From positions 1 to 21,044 of IMG/VR virus record IMGVR_UViG_3300029309_000412: a stretch of DNA of 21,044 nucleotides; one strand, given 5' to 3'. The position numbers and the translations under genes are program-made. The notes under the pieces were generated by a model. The model did no database searches. It was not told where the DNA came from and worked only from the letters and a program-made list of their open reading frames with translations. Shown piece by piece: positions 1,846 through 17,472 of the stretch; the first letter of the stretch is position 1, and each line of letters starts with the position of its first letter. Source of the DNA: a virus.

Positions 1846-2070
1846 ATGAGAAAGAACACGAAAGCATATCAAGTATTAGCAGACATAAACAGAGACAAGG
1901 GCACGACTGTGCAGATAGCAGATCGGACTGCGATCAAGCGGAGCACGGTTGCGTATTACCTGTCCACAATGAAGGGAAAAGGGTGGGTGAAGATGTCCCA
2001 CATTTCTCCTGTGGGCAACCCTTGTTTTGTCTGGGAGATCACAGACGAGGGCAAGCAACAACTTGGCTGA
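1846..2070 (+). CDS. Winged helix-turn-helix DNA-binding protein, 74 aa
   Basis: The ATG at 1846 is preferred because GAGGT (1836-1840) lies five bases upstream; a TTG four codons earlier has no comparable site. The protein reads as a compact winged helix. It has a first helix (KAYQVLADINRDKG), a second helix and turn (TTVQIADRTAIKRS), a recognition helix (STVAYYLSTMKGKGWV) and a beta wing (VKMSHISPVGNPCFVWEIT), ending in a short helix (DEGKQQLG). This is the layout of MarR/ArsR-like single-domain regulators and of many phage transcription factors. No effector domain is present. The likely role is a DNA-binding regulator of early genes; the target site is unknown. Confidence 0.7.
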   Translation: MRKNTKAYQVLADINRDKGTTVQIADRTAIKRSTVAYYLSTMKGKGWVKMSHISPVGNPCFVWEITDEGKQQLG

Positions 2071-2083
2071 GTTTTTAGGGACT

Positions 2084-2269
2084 GTGAGAAAGCAACCTCA
2101 AGGTAAGCACCTGAGGTTGTTTTGCGAAGATTGTAAGTCGATGTGGGTTGCAGGAAGATTTCCTATGTCCGTATCTAAAGTTGAAAAAATAATGGAAAGC
2201 AAATGCCTGATGTGCGAGAGCACTAATCTTTCGGTGTTTGATGATTTCTTGGAGGAAACAAGGGAGTGA
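2084..2269 (+). CDS. Small zinc-ribbon protein, about 61 aa
   Basis: There are two Cys pairs, CEDC and CLMC, about 33 residues apart with hydrophobic strands around them. This is the pattern of a small zinc ribbon that binds one Zn(II). The start is uncertain. The frame has only non-ATG starts: TTG at 2027, TTG at 2063 and GTG at 2084. GTG 2084 is chosen because it follows the previous stop and gives the clean start MRKQPQGKHLRLFCEDC, although AGGG (2077-2080) is rather close to it. The stop overlaps the next GTG start (GTGA, 2266-2269). Such proteins often bind nucleic acid or host proteins; the specific function is unknown. Confidence 0.65.
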   Translation: MRKQPQGKHLRLFCEDCKSMWVAGRFPMSVSKVEKIMESKCLMCESTNLSVFDDFLEETRE

Positions 2270-2946
2270 TACACTACCACGGTACGCCTATCACGCCACG
2301 TTCAAAACTATTGGCGATGGCGGGTAAACATTTTTGTGTTTCGTTTGCCGACAAACGAGATGGAGATTGGTGTTTGTTAAACGCTCAATCTGTAATGTGG
2401 GATAACGGTGCATTCACGGCATTCACTAAAGGCGCAGAACCAAACTGGGTCAAATACTATGAATGGTTGGAAGCACGTTTGTCCCACCCGCATTGGGCAG
2501 TTGTGCCTGATGTAATTGATGGTGAGCCAGAAGATAATCTGGATCTAATCAAGCAATGGCCTCACAGAAAAGATTGCAGTGCAATCGTGTGGCACATGGC
2601 TGAACCAATAGACCATCTATTAAAACTGCTTGACCTGGGATTCGGGAAAATTTGTTTCGGGTCAAGTGGGAAGTATTGGCAAGTAGGATCTGCTCCTTGG
2701 GAAAGAAGAGCAGACGAGGCGTTCAATGCTATATCCAAACGTGGATCAATTCCTTGGATACATATGCTTCGAGGGTTGGCTTTGTCTGGAGACAAGTGGC
2801 CTTTTGCCAGTGCTGATAGTGCCAATGTGGCACGACATCATAATGAACTAAACATCTGTCCCGAGCGGATGGCAAGGAGGATTGACGCAGTACAATGCCC
2901 AGTAGGATGGGAGTTGCGTCCAGAACAAACGGAGATGATTATATGA
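2266..2946 (+). CDS. TGT/DpdA-like protein, putative 7-deazaguanine DNA or tRNA transglycosylase
   Basis: This 226-aa protein belongs to a phage family I recognise by its motif series. The motifs are DNGAF (46-50, comparable with the catalytic DSGGF of tRNA-guanine transglycosylases), PDVIDG (81-86), IVWHM (107-111), FGSSG (131-135), HMLRGL (166-171) and SADSAN (182-187, a candidate for the second catalytic Asp). Alternating strand/helix segments fit a TIM barrel. TGT enzymes exchange guanine for 7-deazaguanines in tRNA; phage DpdA homologues do this in DNA. It is much shorter than cellular TGT (about 370-400 aa) and has no C-terminal zinc site. The start is GTG with GGAGG upstream and overlaps the previous stop (GTGA). 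The next gene, a queuosine-precursor transporter, overlaps by ATGA and strongly supports a deazaguanine role. Target and activity are inference; another nucleoside-processing barrel is possible. Confidence 0.6.
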   Translation: MIHYHGTPITPRSKLLAMAGKHFCVSFADKRDGDWCLLNAQSVMWDNGAFTAFTKGAEPNWVKYYEWLEARLSHPHWAVVPDVIDGEPEDNLDLIKQWPHRKDCSAIVWHMAEPIDHLLKLLDLGFGKICFGSSGKYWQVGSAPWERRADEAFNAISKRGSIPWIHMLRGLALSGDKWPFASADSANVARHHNELNICPERMARRIDAVQCPVGWELRPEQTEMII

Positions 2947-3461
2947 AAAAGTATTTAGCATTCGCAGGATTTGTTGCCACAGTTCCGGCGGCAAACTGGA
3001 TGATTTCAAATGTTGGCACGGTCTGTGTTCCAGACGGACCATGTCTTATACCATTGGGCTTCGGGATCACCGCCCCCTCTGGTGTGTTAATGGTAGGAGC
3101 CGCACTGGTTCTGAGGGACTTGGTTCACGAATGGATGGGCGCGAAGTATGCTCTTGCGGCTGTTGTGATTGGTGCCATTCTTTCCTACTTCTTGGCGAAT
3201 CCATATATAGCACTGGCAAGTTTCATTGCGTTCTCAATATCAGAACTCTCTGACTTCTTTGTGTACGCGAAGTTAAGACAGAAGAACAAACCGTTAGCTA
3301 TCCTAGCTTCTGGCGGTGTGGGTTCTGTTGTAGATAGCGTGGCATTCTTAGCCATAGCCTTTGGATCGTTAGCCTTCATAGAAGGTCAGATTATCGGTAA
3401 ACTTTTAATCAGTGCGTTAGCTGCTGCGGGATTATACGTTTGGAGGAAGCGCAATGTTTAA
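2943..3461 (+). CDS. VUT/YhhQ-type queuosine precursor (preQ0/preQ1) transporter
   Basis: This is a 172-aa integral membrane protein with about five or six hydrophobic segments: 5-20, 46-58, 69-98, 119-146 and 150-166. It has the signature patterns of the VUT (formerly DUF165, YhhQ) family: RDLVHEWMG (58-66), SELSDFFVY (100-108) and SGGVGSVVDSVAF (123-135). Established knowledge is that E. coli YhhQ imports preQ0, and relatives supply queuine or preQ1 for queuosine synthesis. The ATG at 2943 is chosen over an upstream in-frame start because it overlaps the preceding stop as ATGA and has GGAG 8-9 bases upstream. It is shorter than E. coli YhhQ (roughly 220 aa) but keeps the conserved charged motifs within membrane regions. 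It would sit in the host inner membrane and feed the upstream TGT-like enzyme. Confidence 0.8.
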   Translation: MKKYLAFAGFVATVPAANWMISNVGTVCVPDGPCLIPLGFGITAPSGVLMVGAALVLRDLVHEWMGAKYALAAVVIGAILSYFLANPYIALASFIAFSISELSDFFVYAKLRQKNKPLAILASGGVGSVVDSVAFLAIAFGSLAFIEGQIIGKLLISALAAAGLYVWRKRNV

Positions 3462-3708
3462 ACTATTCTATACTTTACTGGTCATTGAGTACGTGGTCGA
3501 AGACCAAGACGTATCGACCTCTGTTATCTTCCCGAGTGAGCAAGCTTGTTACGATGCTTTTGGAGACGGGGTTCTTGATAATTTGTACGATGTCCTTGCC
3601 GATACATATGGCAAGGAGATCATGATGTACTGTAAGAAGACACCGTTTCAATCTGGTGTAAAGAAACCTGACATCAAACCGAAGGTGAGACCTGATGAAG
3701 AAAACTAA
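3454..3708 (+). CDS. Small hypothetical protein, 84 aa
   Basis: The start follows a good Shine-Dalgarno (GGAGGA) inside the end of the transporter gene and overlaps it by 8 bases. The N-terminus is short and hydrophobic (MFKLFYTLLVIEYVV), perhaps a signal or anchor segment but weak. It is followed by an acidic body with two Cys (about residues 33 and 60) and a Pro/Lys-rich tail (KKPDIKPKVRPDEEN). Two cysteines after a possible signal could form a periplasmic disulfide, which would fit a neighbour of a membrane transporter. That is speculative. The family is not recognised. Confidence 0.65.
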   Translation: MFKLFYTLLVIEYVVEDQDVSTSVIFPSEQACYDAFGDGVLDNLYDVLADTYGKEIMMYCKKTPFQSGVKKPDIKPKVRPDEEN

Positions 3709-6062: not shown

Positions 6063-6619
6063 CTGATATATTCGAAGACTACTTTGATGACGGCGAGGCT
6101 CTCGCCAATGTTGAGTTTGTAACTGCAAAGCAACTCAGTGACCTGGTTCGCAAGCTGCGCAAGGTCGAAGATCAAATTGCCGATGCAGAACAATACTTGA
6201 AGACTATAAAGGCAGAGAAGCACAAGCTCTCTACCGAAAACATTCCTGCACTTATGGATGAGATGGGTATGGAACGTATCGACGTTGACGGTTTGACCGT
6301 TGAGCGTAAGATGATTGTTTCTGCTTCTATTCCACAGGATCGCAAGGAAGAAGCTTTCGCATGGCTGCGTGAGAACGGATTGGATGATATCATCAAGAAC
6401 GATATCACTTGTTCTTTTGGCAAAGGCGAAGACAATCTAGCAGGTGACGTTGTGGGTATCTTGCGTGAGAAGGGTTTTGATCCATCGACCAAGACCCATG
6501 TACATCCATCCACATTGAAAGCGTTTGTGAAAGAGCGTGTTACGGATGGTAAACCAATCGACCTCGATATGTTCGGGGCATTCATTGCAAACGCAGCACA
6601 AATACGGAGGAAAGTGTAA
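6059..6619 (+). CDS. Phage replication-cluster protein with N-terminal coiled coil, 186 aa
   Basis: This protein type recurs beside SSB and primase genes in podo- and siphophages, but I know of no assigned function. Residues about 25-62 form a charged helix likely to be a coiled coil (LRKVEDQIADAEQYLK). A beta-rich part follows (MGMERIDVDGLTVERK), then a conserved-looking FAWLRENGLDDIIK and a closing VHPSTLKAFVKERV, which suggest a small alpha/beta domain. It starts MTDIFEDYFDDGE and is markedly acidic at the N-terminus. The GAAGAGGAA Shine-Dalgarno is 8-16 bases upstream. The gene ends in TAATG overlap with the SSB-like gene, so the two are probably made in proportion. A DNA-mimic or nuclease-inhibitor role is conceivable but unsupported. 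Confidence 0.75.
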   Translation: MTDIFEDYFDDGEALANVEFVTAKQLSDLVRKLRKVEDQIADAEQYLKTIKAEKHKLSTENIPALMDEMGMERIDVDGLTVERKMIVSASIPQDRKEEAFAWLRENGLDDIIKNDITCSFGKGEDNLAGDVVGILREKGFDPSTKTHVHPSTLKAFVKERVTDGKPIDLDMFGAFIANAAQIRRKV

Positions 6620-7401
6620 TGGCAAATGCAGTAGCAAAAGCAAAAGGTGTGGAAGTAAGCACCGATGTAATTGATGATATCTTTGAAACAGCAGGTGATG
6701 GTGCGTCATTTGACAGTTCCGAAATGCAGATACCATTTATTCGTATTCTTCAAGCAATGTCTCCACAACTCAGCAAAAAGAAGCCTGAGTACATAGAGGG
6801 GGCAACGCAAGGAGATGTGTTCAATACAGTTACTGGTCAGTACTGGGATGGCGATATGGGAATCACATTGATCCCGTGCTTCCAGACGACAAAGTATCTG
6901 GAGTTTGTTCCTCGGGAGCAAGGCGGTGGGTTCCAAGGTGAACGTGCTGCTAACGATCCCGATCTAACAAAGACAACTCGTGAGGGTGCAAAAGAACTTT
7001 TACCCAACGGTCATGAACTTGTTCGTTCTGATCAACACTATTGTCTGATCGTTGAGGAAGACGGCTCGTTTCAACCTGCGGTTGTTGACATGAAGTCAAG
7101 CCAGTTGAAGGTAAGCAGACGTTGGAAAACTCAGATTGCAATGCAGAAAGTAAAACACCCGAAGTCTGGACAGATGGTAACACCTGCTGTTTATGCTACG
7201 GTGTGGCGAATCTCTACTACCGAAGAGTCAAATGACCAAGGTACGTGGGGCAACTACCAAGTTGAAAAAGAAGGCTTGGTTACTTCGCGTGATCTATTGA
7301 TGGAAGCCAAAGCTTTCCGTGAGTCGATCATGGCGGGTGAGGTTAAAGCTGCAAAAGAACCAGATAGTTCTGTAGATATGGATAACGAAATTCCATTCTA
7401 G
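6619..7401 (+). CDS. Putative single-stranded DNA-binding protein (SSB-like)
   Basis: The 260-aa protein starts at an ATG in TAATG overlap with the previous gene and has GGAGGA nine bases upstream. Its C-terminus is a disordered acidic tail ending DMDNEIPF, the signature of SSB tails that dock replication proteins (E. coli SSB ends DDDIPF). The central part is beta-strand rich with aromatic and basic patches (GDMGITLIPCFQTTKYLEF, then MKSSQLKVSRRWKTQIAMQK), consistent with an OB-type or analogous ssDNA-binding domain, although no classic SSB sequence motif is present. This family is common next to primase genes in phages. It should coat ssDNA at the phage fork and recruit partners. The assignment rests on the tail and context. 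Confidence 0.6.
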   Translation: MANAVAKAKGVEVSTDVIDDIFETAGDGASFDSSEMQIPFIRILQAMSPQLSKKKPEYIEGATQGDVFNTVTGQYWDGDMGITLIPCFQTTKYLEFVPREQGGGFQGERAANDPDLTKTTREGAKELLPNGHELVRSDQHYCLIVEEDGSFQPAVVDMKSSQLKVSRRWKTQIAMQKVKHPKSGQMVTPAVYATVWRISTTEESNDQGTWGNYQVEKEGLVTSRDLLMEAKAFRESIMAGEVKAAKEPDSSVDMDNEIPF

Positions 7402-7412
7402 GTAGCAGTTTT

Positions 7413-7453
7413 GGGGGCACTTGGTTTTATTCTCCTTTTCTCCTTGTGCCCTC
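7413..7453 (+). other. Hairpin in the SSB-primase gap
   Basis: GGGGGCAC (7413-7420) and GTGCCCTC (7446-7453) can pair over 8 bp with one G-U. They enclose a 25-nt T/C-rich loop (pyrimidine run around 7425-7445). No U tract follows, so it is not a classic terminator. At 76 bases this is the longest non-coding gap in the replication operon. The structure may stabilise the upstream SSB message or attenuate read-through into the primase gene. Confidence 0.45.
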
Positions 7454-7477
7454 ATTCAACCTCATCAGGAGCAGAAT

Positions 7478-9010
7478 ATGTCAGCAGCAAAAAGACTGAT
7501 GTCTGTGTTCGAGGGTTCACAGAAAGGCCACGGTCAAACCACGGTGGGTCGGATTGGTAGAAACGGTAAAGCAGATGCAAAGAGTTTCGTGATCCGAGGA
7601 TCGTTGACAGAAGATATAGTACAGGGACACATTGATGGGGCGCAAGGAATCGGTGCCATACCCATCAAGTCTGGAGACGTGTGTAAGTTCGGAGCATTGG
7701 ACATAGATGTCTATGACCTGGATCACAAATCTCTTAGTCAAAAGATACAGCAATTAAAATTACCATTGCACCACTGTCGATCCAAATCCGGCGGTGCTCA
7801 TTTGTTTTTATTCTTGAAGGACTGGGAGCCTGCTGCTCTGGTCCGTGAGATATTATCCGAGATGGCTTCAGCCATCGGGTTCTCGGGTTGTGAGATCTTT
7901 CCAAAGCAAGACACAATCATTGAGGACAGGGGGGATCTAGGAAACTTTATTAATCTTCCATACTTCAATGCCGAAGAGACAATGCGTTACTGTTTCGACA
8001 AGAAATGTGAGGCCATGGATCTTGCTACGTTCTTGATGAATGTAGAAAAGAAAAAGGTCTCGATGGCAGAACTAAACGAGATGTCTTTTGCAGGAGACCG
8101 AAAACACTTTGGCGACGGTGCCTATTGTTTGGAGTTGCTTTCAAGTCTGGGCAAGGTCACGGAGAACAGAAACATCTTTCTGTTTGCGGTGGGTGTGTAC
8201 TGTAGAAAGAAGTGGACAGACGATTGGAAGAAGCACCACGAGGAATATAACAGGTTGCTGTGCCAGCCTCCACTTCCTGCACCCGAGGTCATGCAGCTAC
8301 AAAAATCTTTGGAGAAAAAAGATTACTTCTACCAGTGTGACATCTGTCCTTTGAAAGATCATTGTAACAAAGAGATATGTAAGACTAGAAAGTATGGCAT
8401 CGGAAACGATGGTGCAGATGTCCCGAGAGTCGATGCACTTACTATCATGCAATCAGAACCACGTTTGTATTTCTTAACTGTCGATGGCGGAAGATTGGTC
8501 TTGTCTACGGATCAGCTGCAACATCCATCCTTGTTTCAGAAAGCTTGCATGGAACAACTAGACATCATGCCACCAGTTCCTAAGCCTGGGGATTGGCAGA
8601 AGCTGATAAACTCAATGATGCAAACAGCAACCAAGTTATCTGTAAGCGAAGAACTTACCTACGCCGGACAGTTTAAAAACCACTTACGCGACTATTGTAC
8701 CAGTCGTATAAGAGCCATGGCTCCCGAAGAAATAGAAATGGGCAAGCCATGGACAGAAAGAGGGACGACTATGTTCCGTATCGAAGCTTTGATGGAGTAC
8801 CTCAAGAACAGAGGGTTTACTCAATACACCAGGGCACAGGTGCAAGATCAACTGAAACATCTAAACCATGATCAAGAATGTCATGGAACAAAGAACATCA
8901 GACGGGACGATGGCAGAAGAACGTCCATCCGTGTTTGGTGGGTTCCTGAGTTCGAAGATATGTCTGTAGAAATTACTGCCGAGGAGAAAACTGATGAAAT
9001 CCCGTTCTAA
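7478..9010 (+). CDS. Archaeo-eukaryotic-type primase (AEP superfamily)
   Basis: The ATG at 7478 is preferred because AGGAG lies about eight bases upstream; the TTG at 7421 has no such site and falls in the hairpin region. The 510-aa product has an N-terminal AEP catalytic domain. It shows the metal-binding DxD of ALDIDVYD (73-80; Asp75 and Asp77), the SKSGGAHLFLFL block with catalytic His108 (102-113), and a later NLPYFN (159-164). A Cys cluster at 287, 290, 296 and 301, followed by RKYGIG, suggests a zinc-stabilised region seen in phage and plasmid AEP primases. The C-terminal part is helical with possible wHTH character (FTQYTRAQVQDQLKHLN). It makes primers for the family A polymerase encoded downstream. 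The last residues, TDEIPF, match an SSB tail, which is unusual. No fused helicase domain is present. Confidence 0.8.
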   Translation: MSAAKRLMSVFEGSQKGHGQTTVGRIGRNGKADAKSFVIRGSLTEDIVQGHIDGAQGIGAIPIKSGDVCKFGALDIDVYDLDHKSLSQKIQQLKLPLHHCRSKSGGAHLFLFLKDWEPAALVREILSEMASAIGFSGCEIFPKQDTIIEDRGDLGNFINLPYFNAEETMRYCFDKKCEAMDLATFLMNVEKKKVSMAELNEMSFAGDRKHFGDGAYCLELLSSLGKVTENRNIFLFAVGVYCRKKWTDDWKKHHEEYNRLLCQPPLPAPEVMQLQKSLEKKDYFYQCDICPLKDHCNKEICKTRKYGIGNDGADVPRVDALTIMQSEPRLYFLTVDGGRLVLSTDQLQHPSLFQKACMEQLDIMPPVPKPGDWQKLINSMMQTATKLSVSEELTYAGQFKNHLRDYCTSRIRAMAPEEIEMGKPWTERGTTMFRIEALMEYLKNRGFTQYTRAQVQDQLKHLNHDQECHGTKNIRRDDGRRTSIRVWWVPEFEDMSVEITAEEKTDEIPF

Positions 9011-11008: not shown

Positions 11009-12928
11009 ATGGCGAGAGATCGTAAAGATAAAAAGACGGTGGATCTTGTGGCTAGATTGGAACTGGGGGAATCCTTAGATCCAGACTGGAACATCCCATC
11101 CGAGTTTCCAGACCTGACACAATACAAAACTGTGGCTGTAGACTTGGAAACAAGAGATCCAAACATACAAAAGCTAGGCCCTGGTTGGGCACGGGATGAT
11201 GGAAACATCGTTGGGATTGCGGTAGCAGCAGGCGAATACAAGGGTTACTTTCCTATCCGACACCAGAATGGACACAATCTTGATGCCAAGATGACGATGA
11301 AATGGTTCAAGAAGCAGATGGCGACACCAAACATCGAAAAGATCATGCACAATGCCACATACGACGCAGGATGGCTCCGTGCAGAGGGGGTAGAGGTTCA
11401 AGGTAAGATAATCGACACAATGATCGCTTCGCCACTGGTGGACGAGAACAGGTGGTCTTACAGCCTAAACAACCTGGGGCGTGATTACATCGACATGCGC
11501 AAGGACGAGCGGATGCTTCGCGCTGCGGCAAAAGATTGGGGGATTGATCCCAAGGCTGACATGTGGAAACTGCCACCAAAGTATGTCGGGGCATACGCTG
11601 AACAAGATGCCGTCATGACGTTGAAGTTGTGGGAGAGACTGAAGACAGAGATCACATCTCAGGAACTGACACACATTTTTGATCTTGAAACAAGTTTGAT
11701 TCCGCTCATGCTAGACATGAGGGCACGGGGGGTTCGTGTTGACTTGGACAAAGCCGACATAGTTCGTCAAGGACTAAAAGCCAAGGTCAAAGAACTGAAA
11801 GCAGAAATCAAGCGAAAGACAGGCGTGGAGATAGAGCCATGGGCGGGAGCGTCTGTACTCAAAGTCTTTGAAGCCCTGAACTTGGAGTATCCGAAGACAG
11901 AAGCAGGTGCTCCTTCTTTTACCAAACAGTATCTAAACATGCACCCACACGAAGTGTGCCAAATGATTGTAAAACTGAGAGAGTTTGACAAAGCTGACAG
12001 TACGTTTATCGACTCCATACTCAGGCACGAGAAGGACGGTAGGATACATACTGAATTTCATCAGCTTCGATCCGATGATGGGGGCACGGTAACAGGGCGG
12101 TTCTCGTCTTCTAACCCAAACCTTCAGCAAATTCCGGCACGAGATCCTGACATCAAGGCTATGATCCGTGGATTGTTTGTGCCAGAAGAGGGGCACAAGT
12201 GGGGATCGTTTGACTATTCGAGCCAAGAGCCAAGGCTACTGGTTCACTTTGCAGCTAGTATGCCTAGCGATATGCGGCACCCGGTTGTTGATACAATCGT
12301 AGAAGAGTATCAGAAGGGTGATGTTGATCTGCACCAGATGGTTGCAGACCTTGCAGGTATCAAACGAAAAGAGGCGAAGACCGTTAACCTGGGCATCATG
12401 TACGGTATGGGTGTGGGCAAACTAGCGGCACAGCTAGACATATCCAATCAGGAAGCCAAGGATCTGATTGAAAGGCACAGAGAGAACGTGCCGTTTGTGA
12501 AGCAACTTGCAAACGTTGCCAGTCAAAGAGCAGAGAAGCACGGACAGATACGCACGTTGCTAGGACGTAAATGCCGCTTCCATCTTTGGGAACCTCGAAG
12601 CTTTGGTTACAACAAACCGTTGCCGTATGAAGATGCGTTGAAAGAGTATGGGAACATCAACAATCTGAAAAGAGCGTTTACTTACAAGGCGTTAAACAAG
12701 CTGATCCAAGGGTCAGCTGCGGATCAAACAAAGAAAGCCATGGCAGATTGTTATGCAGAGGGATTAATTCCCTTGCTTACTGTTCACGATGAGTTATGCT
12801 TTTCAGTAGAGGGCGACGATCAAGCGCGACGCATCAAGGACATAATGGAAAACGGGTTGTCGGATGTCTTGAAAGTCCCCTCTAAGGTAGACGACGAGCT
12901 AGGTGATAACTGGGGCGAAGTCGGCTAG
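11009..12928 (+). CDS. Family A DNA polymerase (PolA) with 3'-5' exonuclease
   Basis: The ATG at 11009 is chosen because GGGAGAA lies just upstream and it follows the previous stop directly. An earlier in-frame ATG at 10937 would overlap the previous gene heavily. The 639-aa enzyme has an intact proofreading domain: Exo I DLE (Asp45, Glu47), Exo II NATYD (Asn115, Asp119) and Exo III YAEQD (Tyr196, Asp200). The polymerase domain has motif A FDYSSQEPRL (Asp402), motif B KEAKTVNLGIMYG (Lys457, Tyr465) and motif C VHDE (592-595). There is no 5'-3' exonuclease domain, as usual in phage PolA. At the E. coli Phe762 position it has Leu461, a variant reported in marine virioplankton. I see no inserted DnaJ-like zinc finger. 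Its stop shares a CTAG palindrome with the convergent giant gene. Confidence 0.95.
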   Translation: MARDRKDKKTVDLVARLELGESLDPDWNIPSEFPDLTQYKTVAVDLETRDPNIQKLGPGWARDDGNIVGIAVAAGEYKGYFPIRHQNGHNLDAKMTMKWFKKQMATPNIEKIMHNATYDAGWLRAEGVEVQGKIIDTMIASPLVDENRWSYSLNNLGRDYIDMRKDERMLRAAAKDWGIDPKADMWKLPPKYVGAYAEQDAVMTLKLWERLKTEITSQELTHIFDLETSLIPLMLDMRARGVRVDLDKADIVRQGLKAKVKELKAEIKRKTGVEIEPWAGASVLKVFEALNLEYPKTEAGAPSFTKQYLNMHPHEVCQMIVKLREFDKADSTFIDSILRHEKDGRIHTEFHQLRSDDGGTVTGRFSSSNPNLQQIPARDPDIKAMIRGLFVPEEGHKWGSFDYSSQEPRLLVHFAASMPSDMRHPVVDTIVEEYQKGDVDLHQMVADLAGIKRKEAKTVNLGIMYGMGVGKLAAQLDISNQEAKDLIERHRENVPFVKQLANVASQRAEKHGQIRTLLGRKCRFHLWEPRSFGYNKPLPYEDALKEYGNINNLKRAFTYKALNKLIQGSAADQTKKAMADCYAEGLIPLLTVHDELCFSVEGDDQARRIKDIMENGLSDVLKVPSKVDDELGDNWGEVG

Positions 12929-15900
12929 GTTCTATTCAACGATTCAGCCAAAGCCTGAGTAGCCGGATCTGTACCGAGAAGTGTCGGATCTACTTTTCTT
13001 TGCGGTGCAGGCCCAGACGACGTAGGCGCAACACCTCGAAGTTGGTTTAGATCTATCGTTGGTGCCGCAGGCGCGGGAGCTTGTACTTGTGGTGCAACAG
13101 ATCGCAACGCATCAATGTCTATCTTTTGGTATCTCTGGCTTGGACCGACCCGTGACTCTGGTAACAGTTTGGCGGCGTCTAGAAGAAAGTTCCCAAAACC
13201 TTTTCTGTATTCATTGATATCTGTATATGGAATCTCTTCCATCGGAGTGATTTTTCTAAGATCGTTGTATCTGGCAAGATCTCTTTGAAAGTCTGTTGAT
13301 ATCGGAGTGATGTATAACTTACCATCCATAATAGATCCGACCTCGGCCTTACCCATTCCGGCACCACGCAGAGCATTAGCTATGTCATCAGCAGGCGTTC
13401 CCAACTCTTCCGCGACTTTGATTGAGTTGTAAATCAAGTTTTGAAAACGTTGTTGATCTTCCACGTAATCTTTGTACGCCTGCAACTTTTCTGCTGCGGT
13501 ATAATCAGGTGCTCTAAGGATCGAACCCATTGCGGCTCTTGAGTCATTACGAAGCTGTTGATATTCTTCTGCATTATATCCCAAACTCTGAACACCACTT
13601 ACTTTCATCGGTGTAAAACCTGTAACCAGACGAGCAAACTCTGCATTGAAATCTACGTCGTCTCCAGTTACCGCTGCGGGTGTGCCAGTAAGAGACCTTA
13701 GTAACTTACCTTTTCTAGGTCTTCCGTTTCTCTCTTCTGCCATCTCCAACCAGTATCGAGGAGCGAGACCCTCTAATACGTGCCACGTTCCTTTTACAAA
13801 CGCCTCTCCCCTTGTATCACTCTTTCTGTATACCTTTGATCCAGTGGATGTAACACCGTTACGACCAACAGCTAAATAGTCTGGAAGTACAGTTCTAAGT
13901 CTGTCGTAGATGATTGTTTCTGAACCAAACGGGTCTGCAAACTTTTCAAATCCCGCAGCCATGGCGGCATCCATAAGTTGTTTGGCTTCGCTTTTACCCA
14001 ATCTTCCGGCTTCGTTGTACGCTTGCAAGCCTGATCTGATCGCCTCTGTAATGTATCCGTATGGATTGTGATAGGACTGGTTAACAACTTCGATGTTACC
14101 TTTGTTGTCATTTTCAAGAACGATGAAGTTACCACCCTTGGCAAAATCTGGTACACTTGCTTCGATTGCCGCCATCTCTGCGTCTGTGGTTCCTGTAAGT
14201 TTTTGAGAAAACTTGGTTAGTCCCTTCGGCGCTGCAACAGCAACAGCAAGACTATTCGTTAGTCTTTGCGCCCCGATACCTCTAATTTGTTTTTCAAAGA
14301 TGTCGATTGAAGCAAGAGCTTGTTCTCTTGTTCGACCTTTACCCATTTGATCCACAATGATTGAATCTCTCTGTGCAGGAGCTATTTCAAAAGAAAGTTC
14401 TTTCAGCCCCCGGTCAAGGATGTTGTATCCGTTTCTAAAGTTCTCAGAGGCAAAGGATGTAAAGTTACCAAAGATAGGCACACGGTCAAGAAATCGAAGA
14501 GCTTCTGGAATACGGTCATACATCGGCATCGTATCTTTAACGATGTTGATAGCACTCCCATCGAGCAATCCAAACTTGGAGATGCCAAGCTGACCTGTGG
14601 ACGGTCTGACAAGTCCCGCTTGTTCCATAGCTTCGTAAAGAAACTTATTGCTTTGATTCAAACCAGACTTAGCAAAAGCATTCCCTAGCTTGTTTCTCTC
14701 TCCCATGTAAGCCAACGCTTTGAAGAACGCATCAGATTCGCCGTATATCTTTTCAGCAAACCGCATGAACGGAACAACATCTTCAAAACCTTGAATACCT
14801 TTTGCTAACACACCACCGGCCTTTAAATCTTTCCCCGCAGCTTGATATTCTTTCAAGGATCTGAAGATAACACTACTGTCTCTCAATCCCGAATGGTTGA
14901 GAATGTCAGCAAGGCGTCGAACCTCATCGTCACCTAAATCACCAAGACCTTTTGTGAAAACCTCAAACGCATCCATAAAGTCTAGGTTTCTTTGAACGTT
15001 TCCGTTCATCATCAACATCTGAAAGTTACCAGTGATGTTTCTAACCTGGGTTGTAGGACTTGGAACAATCGCCATCTTTTGTGAGAACGCTCGGATCTGT
15101 TGGAAGATACCTACGATTTCGCTGCTAGGAGAAAGGTTTAACGGCTCATGCAAAGCACGATATGTTTCTGGAGAAACCCATTGACCAGTAAGATCTCCAT
15201 ACCTACCACCAAATATACTAAGAGATTCATCAACAACACCTGTTTCTGGATCAGCCCCTAACTTGACGTAGTTACTAGTATCCAACGACTTCTCAAGTCT
15301 CAGTATTTCTTCAGTAATTTCACCCACATCTGTTGCACCTGCTTTTTGACCAATTGAATCAAAAAGTCCTGACACGGGATTTTCTTTTGGAGCGTCAACG
15401 TATCTAAATCCTGATCGCATAGCTTGGTTTCTTGCGTCTATTTCAGGTTTTGTCGGAACTCGAACAACGGAGGGTCTAGCATTGCCTCCTATGATATCAT
15501 TTATAGTTTCTTGTGATATGTCCCTAGCCAAAGGTGATTTAAGAATTGAGGAATATAGCTCCGCAGCGGAACTTGTTTTGGCTATATCTGATGTTGTTCT
15601 AACATATGCTTCAAGTGGATCAGTCACCTCTCCCATGAGAGTTCTTAGTTTTGGAGATTTGTTTATTAACTCATTTCGTTTTATCAACATGTCCTCAACA
15701 ACAGAGAGCCTGTTGACATCTTTAGCAAAAAGCCCTCCTTCTTTACCCTCTTTGAAACCTTGTATAATTTTTCCCAAAACAATATCTGGATCTACGCTGT
15801 CATCTATAACAGCAGGCAAATAAATAGATTCGTTAACTATTTTTTCTGCTTCTTTTCTTATGTACGCTTCTGATTTTCCAACATTTTCTGCATTATCAAA

Positions 15901-17472
15901 TATGTTGTTAGCAATCTCATCAACTGCTTCTATGTATTCTTTTGATTTAACACCGCCTCTTTTGAAGAAACCTCTTAAAAAATTTTCTGGGTTTTCTTTG
16001 GCTTCAAAAATACGTCTCAAATACCCTTCGCCTGCGGCGTTGGTTTCTTTGATTACACTTATCGCATCTAGTGCCGCTTTCTTTCTGTTGCCAGGACCAA
16101 GAACCGAGACTTCTCTCTCTAGCCTACCTAACAAAAAATCTTGCAAATCGGCACGAGAGTCCAACATCTTGTCCGCAGCTTCTCTGACCTTGGCACCATA
16201 TTTTATTTGGAACTTCTCACCCTGCATTGCAAAATCAAATGGCTTTCCTTTCTCTTGTCCAAACTGAAAACGCAAGTAAGCGTCCAGATCGTTCCGTAGT
16301 TCTGTGGCTTCTGGTTTTGTTTTCTGCCAGAACTTTGTTTGTTTTAAAACGTTATTGGTTGCGGAATGGAATTGATCCATGGCGTCCAGTGCTTTTCTCT
16401 GTAAGCCGTCACCTTTGTCTACGGTGTCTCTAATTCCTTGAATCAATACAGGATCGGCACCACCTGTGGTTGTGAAGTACCTAGCAAGTTTTGCCCCTGC
16501 TTTATCTGTAACAGGTTTTATTTTTGTCTTTCCTTTAGCAAACAGGTTAGCGGCATAGGTGTCTGCCACTTGTTCACCAAGAACATCTGAAGCTTTTCTG
16601 ATTACTTCCGCTGTTTTCCTTGTTCCATAGGACAACGGCGTTGAAACATATGGACTACGAACCGCAGCTTGGGCACCAAAGAATCCTGCATCCAATAATC
16701 CTGAAAGTGCGGCTATCTCTGTGCCTCTTTTTAATTTGTTAGACAGAACTCGATTTGCGTTGTCTCTACCTTTATGATTGTCGTATTGCTCTGTCTGCAA
16801 GAAGTCAGGGAGTACATCGAACTGGTCAGAAAGAGAAGGACGAGAGTCTGGAGAAGTTAAAAACTCAGTGCCGAAATGGTAAGCGGCACCGATTCCACCT
16901 GTTGCAATTCCTCTTTTGATTGTTTCTTTTGACACAAGAGGAGCATCACTAGCAAACAAACGTTGTCCCGTTTTGCTTCTACCAAACTTTTGTACCGCTC
17001 GTCCGACTTGGCTTGCTGCGTCTGGAACTACTGCTCCTGCTTTTTGCCCTTTTGCCGCTTTTTGAGCTATTCTTAAATATCTAAAAAGAGGAATTAGTTT
17101 TATTCCCTCTTCTGTAGCGAGTTGAGAAATGTTTCCCGCAGCGGTTTCTGGTCTGTACGGTTCAAGCATGTAGTCAAAAGCTTTAGTTGTAGGAGCCGTC
17201 AGATTTGTCCCAAACTGCCTGTCAACCAAAGCTGTTGTTGTTTCTGAAATCCCTTGTAACAATGCTGTTGGGGCTGCGATTATACCCTTGCCGATATCCA
17301 CCGCTGTGCGAGGGCTTTTCTTTATACCCGCAATAAATTTTTCACCCAAAGAACGTTTGGGTGCCGCTTCTTTCAAAGCGTTCAAATCTATCCCACCGCT
17401 AGATGGTTTTGTTTCTTCTGTTTTTTGTTTTGGGGCTGCTGACCTAAGAGCCTCAAGATCTATCTCTGCCAC
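12925..17472 (-). CDS. Giant putative virion/ejection protein, 1515 aa
   Basis: A long uninterrupted reading frame starts at GTG (17472) with AGGAG six bases upstream. No catalytic family is recognised. It is mostly helical, with alanine- and leucine-rich segments and several amphipathic or weakly hydrophobic stretches (for example IGKGIIAAPTALLQGI near the N-terminus). A PSPTTQVRNITGN segment resembles ones seen in large phage internal or polyvalent proteins. The N-terminus has two IDLxxLRxxAP motifs (residues 4-14 and 28-38) and the C-terminus two more (1451-1461 and 1473-1483), the last pair in a Pro/Ala-rich linker. Size, composition and position at the end of a minus-strand structural run suggest an internal virion or DNA-ejection protein. 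This is inference. It converges on polA with overlapping stops and no terminator between them. Confidence 0.8.
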   Translation of the reverse strand: MAEIDLEALRSAAPKQKTEETKPSSGGIDLNALKEAAPKRSLGEKFIAGIKKSPRTAVDIGKGIIAAPTALLQGISETTTALVDRQFGTNLTAPTTKAFDYMLEPYRPETAAGNISQLATEEGIKLIPLFRYLRIAQKAAKGQKAGAVVPDAASQVGRAVQKFGRSKTGQRLFASDAPLVSKETIKRGIATGGIGAAYHFGTEFLTSPDSRPSLSDQFDVLPDFLQTEQYDNHKGRDNANRVLSNKLKRGTEIAALSGLLDAGFFGAQAAVRSPYVSTPLSYGTRKTAEVIRKASDVLGEQVADTYAANLFAKGKTKIKPVTDKAGAKLARYFTTTGGADPVLIQGIRDTVDKGDGLQRKALDAMDQFHSATNNVLKQTKFWQKTKPEATELRNDLDAYLRFQFGQEKGKPFDFAMQGEKFQIKYGAKVREAADKMLDSRADLQDFLLGRLEREVSVLGPGNRKKAALDAISVIKETNAAGEGYLRRIFEAKENPENFLRGFFKRGGVKSKEYIEAVDEIANNIFDNAENVGKSEAYIRKEAEKIVNESIYLPAVIDDSVDPDIVLGKIIQGFKEGKEGGLFAKDVNRLSVVEDMLIKRNELINKSPKLRTLMGEVTDPLEAYVRTTSDIAKTSSAAELYSSILKSPLARDISQETINDIIGGNARPSVVRVPTKPEIDARNQAMRSGFRYVDAPKENPVSGLFDSIGQKAGATDVGEITEEILRLEKSLDTSNYVKLGADPETGVVDESLSIFGGRYGDLTGQWVSPETYRALHEPLNLSPSSEIVGIFQQIRAFSQKMAIVPSPTTQVRNITGNFQMLMMNGNVQRNLDFMDAFEVFTKGLGDLGDDEVRRLADILNHSGLRDSSVIFRSLKEYQAAGKDLKAGGVLAKGIQGFEDVVPFMRFAEKIYGESDAFFKALAYMGERNKLGNAFAKSGLNQSNKFLYEAMEQAGLVRPSTGQLGISKFGLLDGSAINIVKDTMPMYDRIPEALRFLDRVPIFGNFTSFASENFRNGYNILDRGLKELSFEIAPAQRDSIIVDQMGKGRTREQALASIDIFEKQIRGIGAQRLTNSLAVAVAAPKGLTKFSQKLTGTTDAEMAAIEASVPDFAKGGNFIVLENDNKGNIEVVNQSYHNPYGYITEAIRSGLQAYNEAGRLGKSEAKQLMDAAMAAGFEKFADPFGSETIIYDRLRTVLPDYLAVGRNGVTSTGSKVYRKSDTRGEAFVKGTWHVLEGLAPRYWLEMAEERNGRPRKGKLLRSLTGTPAAVTGDDVDFNAEFARLVTGFTPMKVSGVQSLGYNAEEYQQLRNDSRAAMGSILRAPDYTAAEKLQAYKDYVEDQQRFQNLIYNSIKVAEELGTPADDIANALRGAGMGKAEVGSIMDGKLYITPISTDFQRDLARYNDLRKITPMEEIPYTDINEYRKGFGNFLLDAAKLLPESRVGPSQRYQKIDIDALRSVAPQVQAPAPAAPTIDLNQLRGVAPTSSGPAPQRKVDPTLLGTDPATQALAESLNRT
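13024..13122 (-). repeat. C-terminal pair of IDLxxLRxxAP peptide motifs
   Basis: Two copies, IDIDALRSVAP (13122-13090) and IDLNQLRGVAP (13056-13024), are separated by a Pro/Ala linker. With the N-terminal pair, the consensus is I-D-[LI]-x-x-L-[RK]-x-[AV]-A-P. Confidence 0.85.
17359..17463 (-). repeat. N-terminal pair of IDLxxLRxxAP peptide motifs
   Basis: Two copies, IDLEALRSAAP (17463-17431) and IDLNALKEAAP (17391-17359), are separated by a Lys/Glu/Ser linker. The same motif recurs at the other end of the protein. It looks like a short amphipathic docking helix followed by a Pro cap. Confidence 0.85.

Follow-up and report, generated by a model that had tools for sequence, protein, structure and literature searches.

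Two overlapping genes in a 21,044-base IMG/VR virus record probably form a two-gene, salvage-type cassette for modifying DNA with 7-deazaguanines. The whole record, probably a partial genome, was analysed and is here called the window. In the mechanism that we favor, a membrane protein of the VUT family would supply the infected cell, by import, with a 7-deazaguanine base (preQ0 or a related one, for instance preQ1 or 7-carboxy-7-deazaguanine). A DpdA-like enzyme would then put this base in the place of guanine in phage DNA by a base exchange of the TGT type, in which invariant aspartates would bind the base and serve as general acid/base and as nucleophile, and the modified DNA would presumably resist some host nucleases. 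The coupling of supply, from VUT to the DpdA-like enzyme, is well supported by comparison of loci at the sequence level, whereas we infer the direction and cargo of transport, the exchange chemistry, the DNA target and the protective benefit. The features of the locus are:

2027 to 2269, plus strand: open reading frame of 80 amino acids containing two CxxC pairs; it shares 4 bases with the start of the enzyme gene (ORF list).
2251 to 2255, plus strand: Shine-Dalgarno-like GGAGG ahead of the GTG start of the enzyme gene (sequence).
2266 to 2946, plus strand: putative DpdA-like base-exchange enzyme of the phrog_887 family, short, 226 amino acids, GTG start (phrog_887 profile, alignment, AlphaFold2).
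2931 to 2934, plus strand: Shine-Dalgarno-like GGAG ahead of the ATG start of the transporter gene (sequence).
2943 to 3461, plus strand: predicted membrane transporter of the Vut_1/COG1738 (YhhQ/QPTR) type, 172 amino acids, ATG start (PF02592, phrog_4899, invariant residues).
3454 to 3708, plus strand: open reading frame of 84 amino acids, overlapping the 3' end of the transporter gene by 8 bases (ORF list).

The stop of the enzyme gene and the start of the transporter gene share the sequence ATGA. Both open reading frames and this overlap are present as the original prediction described them, and the motifs quoted there were all found, DNGAF, FGSSG and SADSAN in the enzyme and RDLVHEWMG, SELSD and GSVVDS in the transporter. 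The two genes are embedded in a series of overlapping small genes, among which the 84-residue frame is retained in close relatives only; the 80-residue frame has no family match, occurs in three loci at most and is not conserved with the cassette. We detected no RNA family and no tRNA in the window. Nor did these 21 kb of a probably partial genome yield any QueC, QueD, QueE or FolE, in agreement with the absence noted earlier.

The DNA polymerase of the window has its nearest sequenced relatives in Pelagibacter phages HTVC023P and HTVC027P and a few others, at ~50% identity. The replication module also holds, beside a UvrD-type helicase and the family A DNA polymerase, a gene at 7421-9010 whose 529-residue product resembles Pfam AEP-TOTE, the primase domain of TOTE conflict systems (4e-15). 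The module whose polymerase is nearest to those of the Pelagibacter phages includes a gene at 6619-7401 encoding a 260-residue protein similar to Pfam Pam3_Gp34 (3e-64), which takes its name from a protein of phage Pam3. A frame of 1515 amino acids on the minus strand (12925-17472) has no Pfam match and probably encodes a virion protein.

The assignment of the second gene to the VUT/YhhQ family, first made from sequence signatures, was borne out by a match to Pfam Vut_1 (PF02592; 9.4e-14, 52.5 bits against a cut-off of 27.2), and phrog_4899 matched at 9.5e-35. The NCBIfam model TIGR00697, 'queuosine precursor transporter', gave 45.1 bits, under its cut-off of 50.95; judged by its sequence, the protein is homologous to this family yet falls under the curated limit. 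The sequence is mostly hydrophobic, and residues R58, D59, E101, D131 and K153 are invariant among 21 phage homologues.

The enzyme matched phrog_887, 'queuine tRNA-ribosyltransferase', at 1.1e-38, with residues 1-192 aligned to positions 11-215 of the 509 in the profile. It matched no Pfam family up to an E-value of 0.1 and no NCBIfam model, and PF01702 (TGT) has no match anywhere in the window. The enzyme thus has no match over the cut-off to the Pfam DpdA family PF23859, and its profile showed weak similarity to that of a PF23859-type set (p 0.0013). The CxCxxC zinc motif is absent from the enzyme; in a canonical TGT we saw the C-terminal zinc site CxCxxC...H. The upstream 80-residue CxxC protein was ruled out as supplier of the missing zinc domain, as it is not conserved with the enzyme. 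Alignment of 97 sequences (A4) identified 16 invariant residues: G6, P8, D46, D82, P99, V108, W109 and H110 in the first half, then G132, S133, H166, R169, P179, S182, D184 and S185. An AlphaFold2 model built with 97 sequences (pLDDT 94.5, pTM 0.89) predicts an 8-stranded alpha/beta barrel of alternating strands and helices and places the invariant residues, D46, D82 and D184 included, at or just past the ends of successive strands. This model supersedes a first one (22 sequences, pLDDT 72.5), which was too weak.

Structure prediction had been proposed as a check for a TGT fold. Foldseek against BFVD, using the first, weaker model, returned phage queuine tRNA-ribosyltransferases as the best named matches; against PDB, no TGT was among the 50 matches listed, which were generic barrels (TrpA, transaldolase) at E-values of at least 5e-3. 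Comparison of the enzyme profile with five bacterial TGTs was not significant, and because the accepted PF23859 DpdA, used as positive control, also failed, this comparison lacks power. We take the motif order DNGAF, PDV, FGSS, HxxR, ADS to correspond to TDSGG, FDEC, GG, YLMG, FDC of TGT; D184 is then presumably the nucleophile, and the same order suggests that D46, D82 and D184 are equivalent to the Asp residues of TGT. In view of the missing zinc motif and the lack of a TGT fold or PF01702 match in these searches, we file the enzyme with the phrog_887 DpdA-like phage enzymes and not with canonical TGT. The description of the protein as TGT-like thus holds at the level of the phrog_887 family and does not extend to canonical TGT, as judged by PF01702, the zinc motif and the PDB folds listed.

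A survey of related phages had been suggested for conservation of the pair. We chose the sample on the enzyme alone, blind to VUT, by an IMG/VR search with clustering at 90% identity as the only kinship control, which gave 58 non-redundant viral loci flanked on either side by 900 bases or more. VUT lies within 2.5 kb of the enzyme in 48 of the 58 (83%) and within 400 bp in 46. All 48 pairs are encoded on the same strand, VUT being downstream in 28 and upstream in 20. VUT homologues were detected in just 42 of 50,697 phage records, so the pairing is not a matter of chance. The VUT partners belong to lineages that are clearly distinct, their identity to the VUT of the window ranging from 37% to 99%, with others weaker still. 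Among the first 67 loci, enzyme and VUT were the sole genes recurring together, other genes recurring among close relatives only. The pair occurs in the isolated phages Pam5, RHph_N3_2 and RHph_X2_30 and in prophage-like loci of Agrobacterium, Ensifer, Devosia, Rhizobium, Microvirga and others.

The replication genes common to the window phage and its relatives allow the cassette to be compared in place. Loci L006 and L007 carry, in order, a primase-like gene, a small HTH gene, enzyme, VUT, a UvrD-type helicase, a 92-residue gene and DNA polymerase; in L016 and L017 the order is primase-like gene, enzyme, QueE, QueD, helicase, 92-residue gene and polymerase. In L016, QueE scores above the NCBIfam equivalog cut-off of TIGR04508 (7-carboxy-7-deazaguanine synthase) and QueD above that of TIGR03367 (6-carboxytetrahydropterin synthase). 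Between the same flanks, therefore, the slot beside the enzyme holds either a transporter or two steps of precursor synthesis. In bacterial contigs without VUT the enzyme is accompanied by QueE and QueD (L109) or by QueD (L088, L097, L106). In the window the cassette is placed elsewhere, ahead of an SNF2-type gene, and in L008 the order of enzyme and VUT is reversed and the VUT is divergent, indicating that the cassette changes position but stays together. A 98-residue truncated or reduced QueD-like protein (PTPS, 22.5 bits) is encoded by Caulobacter phage DMCA (L071:5705-6001), its gene touching the start of the enzyme gene.

Across the 58 loci of the window's enzyme family, 46 have VUT only, 3 have Que genes only, 2 have both and 7 have neither. 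VUT loci without a window-type enzyme usually have an adjoining member of phrog_15826, a family related to that of the window by profile comparison (hhalign p 1.6e-6) and annotated 'DpdA-like' in isolated phages such as Zilizebeth and Aoka. Its 58 non-redundant loci divide into 38 with VUT only, 8 with synthesis genes only (7 of these with QueC, QueD and QueE), 1 with both and 11 with neither. VUT and Que genes tend not to co-occur (Fisher p 0.03 and 0.0003, pooled 9.6e-6, with 90% identity clustering as the only kinship control). From these gene distributions, importer and synthesis genes appear to stand in for one another as sources of the enzyme's substrate, and this mutual replacement implies that supply limits the enzyme. 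A third family is represented by phiLM21, where a gene matching Pfam DpdA PF23859 (2e-43) overlaps VUT; the phiLM21-type DpdA was ruled out as a third regular partner of VUT, as the arrangement was found in 2 of 25 loci. Erebus product76 was rejected as a DpdA, being an SSB/DUF669 protein. In L145 (5530-6309) a divergent radical-SAM QueE-like protein follows straight after the DpdA-like enzyme, in the place of VUT.

Strong QueC matches were present in 33 of the 37 bacterial genomes that carry the prophage-type enzyme, which rules out absence of preQ0 synthesis as a general rule among hosts of the pair. Strong QueC was missing from 3 of the 12 VUT-type hosts and from 1 of the 25 others, a difference no more than suggestive, in genomes that are partly MAGs. 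Since host QueC is usual, import is not obviously necessary and host synthesis may contribute; the original proposal that the phage needs only two genes does not follow. In the complete phage genomes of Pam5, RHph_N3_2, RHph_X2_30, Zilizebeth, Aoka and ReqiPine5 we found no QueC, QueD or FolE.

As to the target of the enzyme, we infer DNA rather than tRNA, mainly by analogy with relatives such as MED16. The window enzyme is 34.6% identical to that of MED16 over 92% of its length, and MED16, which has DpdA without preQ0 genes, contains dADG in its DNA (PMC8306585). Phage 7-11 also has dADG in its DNA at a low level (PMC6884629). The extent of modification in such DpdA-only phages is small, 0.13% of G in MED16 and 0.02% in 7-11 (PMC8306585, PMC6884629), and the dADG of MED16 does not noticeably block restriction enzymes (PMC8306585). 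Orion, with DpdA only, showed no modification when grown on M. smegmatis, which reportedly does not synthesize preQ0 (PMC6884629); our search of the 50,697 phage records detected no VUT in Orion. The claim that the phage transporter supplies the neighboring enzyme draws strong support from the near-constant pairing, in both orders and with several VUT lineages, and from the replacement by Que genes; it stands for a DpdA-like enzyme and not for a canonical TGT.

Several other readings of the pair were weighed. That the two are unrelated accessory genes that happen to be neighbors in a variable region would be in keeping with the 7 of 58 enzyme loci without VUT or Que genes nearby and with the changing position of the cassette within its lineage. 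This reading is effectively refuted by the association counts, and we give it next to no credence: the 83% association came from a VUT-blind sample, is always on the same strand, is seen in both orders and with several VUT lineages, and is repeated in the second enzyme family. It is also quite improbable that the barrel protein is not a transglycosylase and acts instead on 7-deazaguanine compounds, for example toward a dNTP for the phage polymerase. The generic barrels listed from PDB, with no TGT among them, speak for this, as does the failure of the enzyme profile to reach TGT, shared by the PF23859 DpdA control. Against it stand phrog_887 and the best named BFVD fold matches, all phage queuine tRNA-ribosyltransferases, and the conserved motif order, which we take to parallel that of TGT. 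In addition, HHpred related the MED16 homologue to the TGT structure 2ASH at 99% (PMC8306585).

If tRNA were the target, a minimal transglycosylase would place imported preQ0, preQ1 or queuine in host or phage tRNA and so adjust decoding during infection. Bacterial transporter-TGT fusions and clusters do serve tRNA queuosine (PMC11130926), and tRNA roles have been proposed for phages with Q-pathway genes and no DpdA (Hutinet et al. 2019, PMC6884629). We nevertheless regard this as unlikely: the enzyme has neither a PF01702 match nor the C-x-C-x2-C zinc motif of bacterial tRNA-TGT, a canonical TGT is already present in 7 of the 8 host genomes checked, and the DpdA-only relatives MED16 and 7-11 carry their dADG in DNA (PMC8306585, PMC6884629). 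A reading that deserves more weight, although we lean against it, is that the enzyme mainly uses preQ0 made by the host, with VUT a helpful rather than an essential source. The frequency of strong QueC in the bacterial genomes agrees with this, and enterobacterial relatives carry the enzyme alone. The mutual replacement of VUT and Que genes, implying limitation by supply, argues the other way, as do the pairs of VUT and DpdA-like genes in phages of M. smegmatis, a host reported to be without the preQ0 pathway (PMC6884629); cluster-P phages, among them Zilizebeth, carry such a pair on this host.

The salvage cassette that we favor resembles several described systems. DpdA-only 'group 3' phages (Salmonella 7-11, Mycobacterium Orion, Pantoea MED16) likewise have a DpdA-like enzyme without preQ0 biosynthesis genes; unlike the window, MED16 has no VUT partner near its gene. 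Clusters of the Seuratvirus/EC151 type (folE-queD-queE-queC-dpdA) share with the window a DpdA and a preQ0-type transporter, but there full synthesis is present and the transporter is seen as a supplement (PMC8310023), whereas in the window's family the transporter replaces synthesis. In cluster-P mycobacteriophages (Zilizebeth, Majeke, Ksquared), Arthrobacter phage Aoka and Rhodococcus phage ReqiPine5, VUT adjoins or lies very near a 'DpdA-like' gene of phrog_15826, the distant relative of the window's enzyme. The window's own enzyme family is found in RHph_N3_2 and RHph_X2_30 (Rhizobium) and Pam5 (Pseudanabaena), with enzymes 44-49% and VUT proteins 53-58% identical. The pair overlaps directly in RHph_N3_2, as in the window, whereas Pam5 and RHph_X2_30 have small frames between the two genes and RHph_X2_30 has the order reversed; in all three the genes are annotated merely as hypothetical, transglycosylase, DUF165 or VUT. 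In bacterial salvage by Tgt (PF01702) and QPTR/YhhQ a transporter of the same family likewise feeds a base-exchange enzyme; compared with Tgt, the window enzyme has no PF01702 match and is missing the zinc-binding region and ~150 residues.

Precursor uptake has been put forward before. Hutinet et al. (2019) considered that phages with DpdA alone may draw their precursors from the host or from an exogenous source, and suggested uptake (PMC6884629); they noted YhhQ homologues in some phages, correlating with no group (PMC6884629), and DpdA-only phages formed the largest group of their survey, with a modification status called hard to predict (PMC6884629). We found no description of the tight coupling of enzyme and VUT or of the VUT-Que exchange in the literature searched, little of which was subscription-based. 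That the transporter is the usual partner in two DpdA-like families, alternating with synthesis genes, offers a mechanism for DpdA-only phages; if the salvage cassette is what we take it to be, phage DNA modification would be nutrient-conditional.

More broadly, import-or-make may be a general rule covering a large share of phage DNA-modification systems, with DpdA-like enzymes in swappable cassettes where one transporter gene replaces the 7-deazaguanine synthesis genes. We hold this tentatively, at somewhat less than an even chance; if true, the chemistry of phage DNA would depend on nutrients outside the cell. Such a rule would include cases with an importer and QueC only, which would suit import of 7-carboxy-7-deazaguanine. 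At L170:4456-5001, L183:4450-4995 and L286:4503-5048, QueC-family proteins of 181 residues adjoin a DpdA-like gene in loci that also carry VUT (the short QueC matches PF06508, at ~1e-42 where tested). To judge from their gene content, these loci would fit an importer joined to the last synthesis step, serving 7-carboxy-7-deazaguanine import or the making of the amide (ADG). A VUT-family gene also adjoins a QueC gene in two alphaproteobacterial host genomes (G018:C2:1146482-1147703 and G017:C16:31591-32821), where importer and QueC are thus paired outside phage cassettes too.
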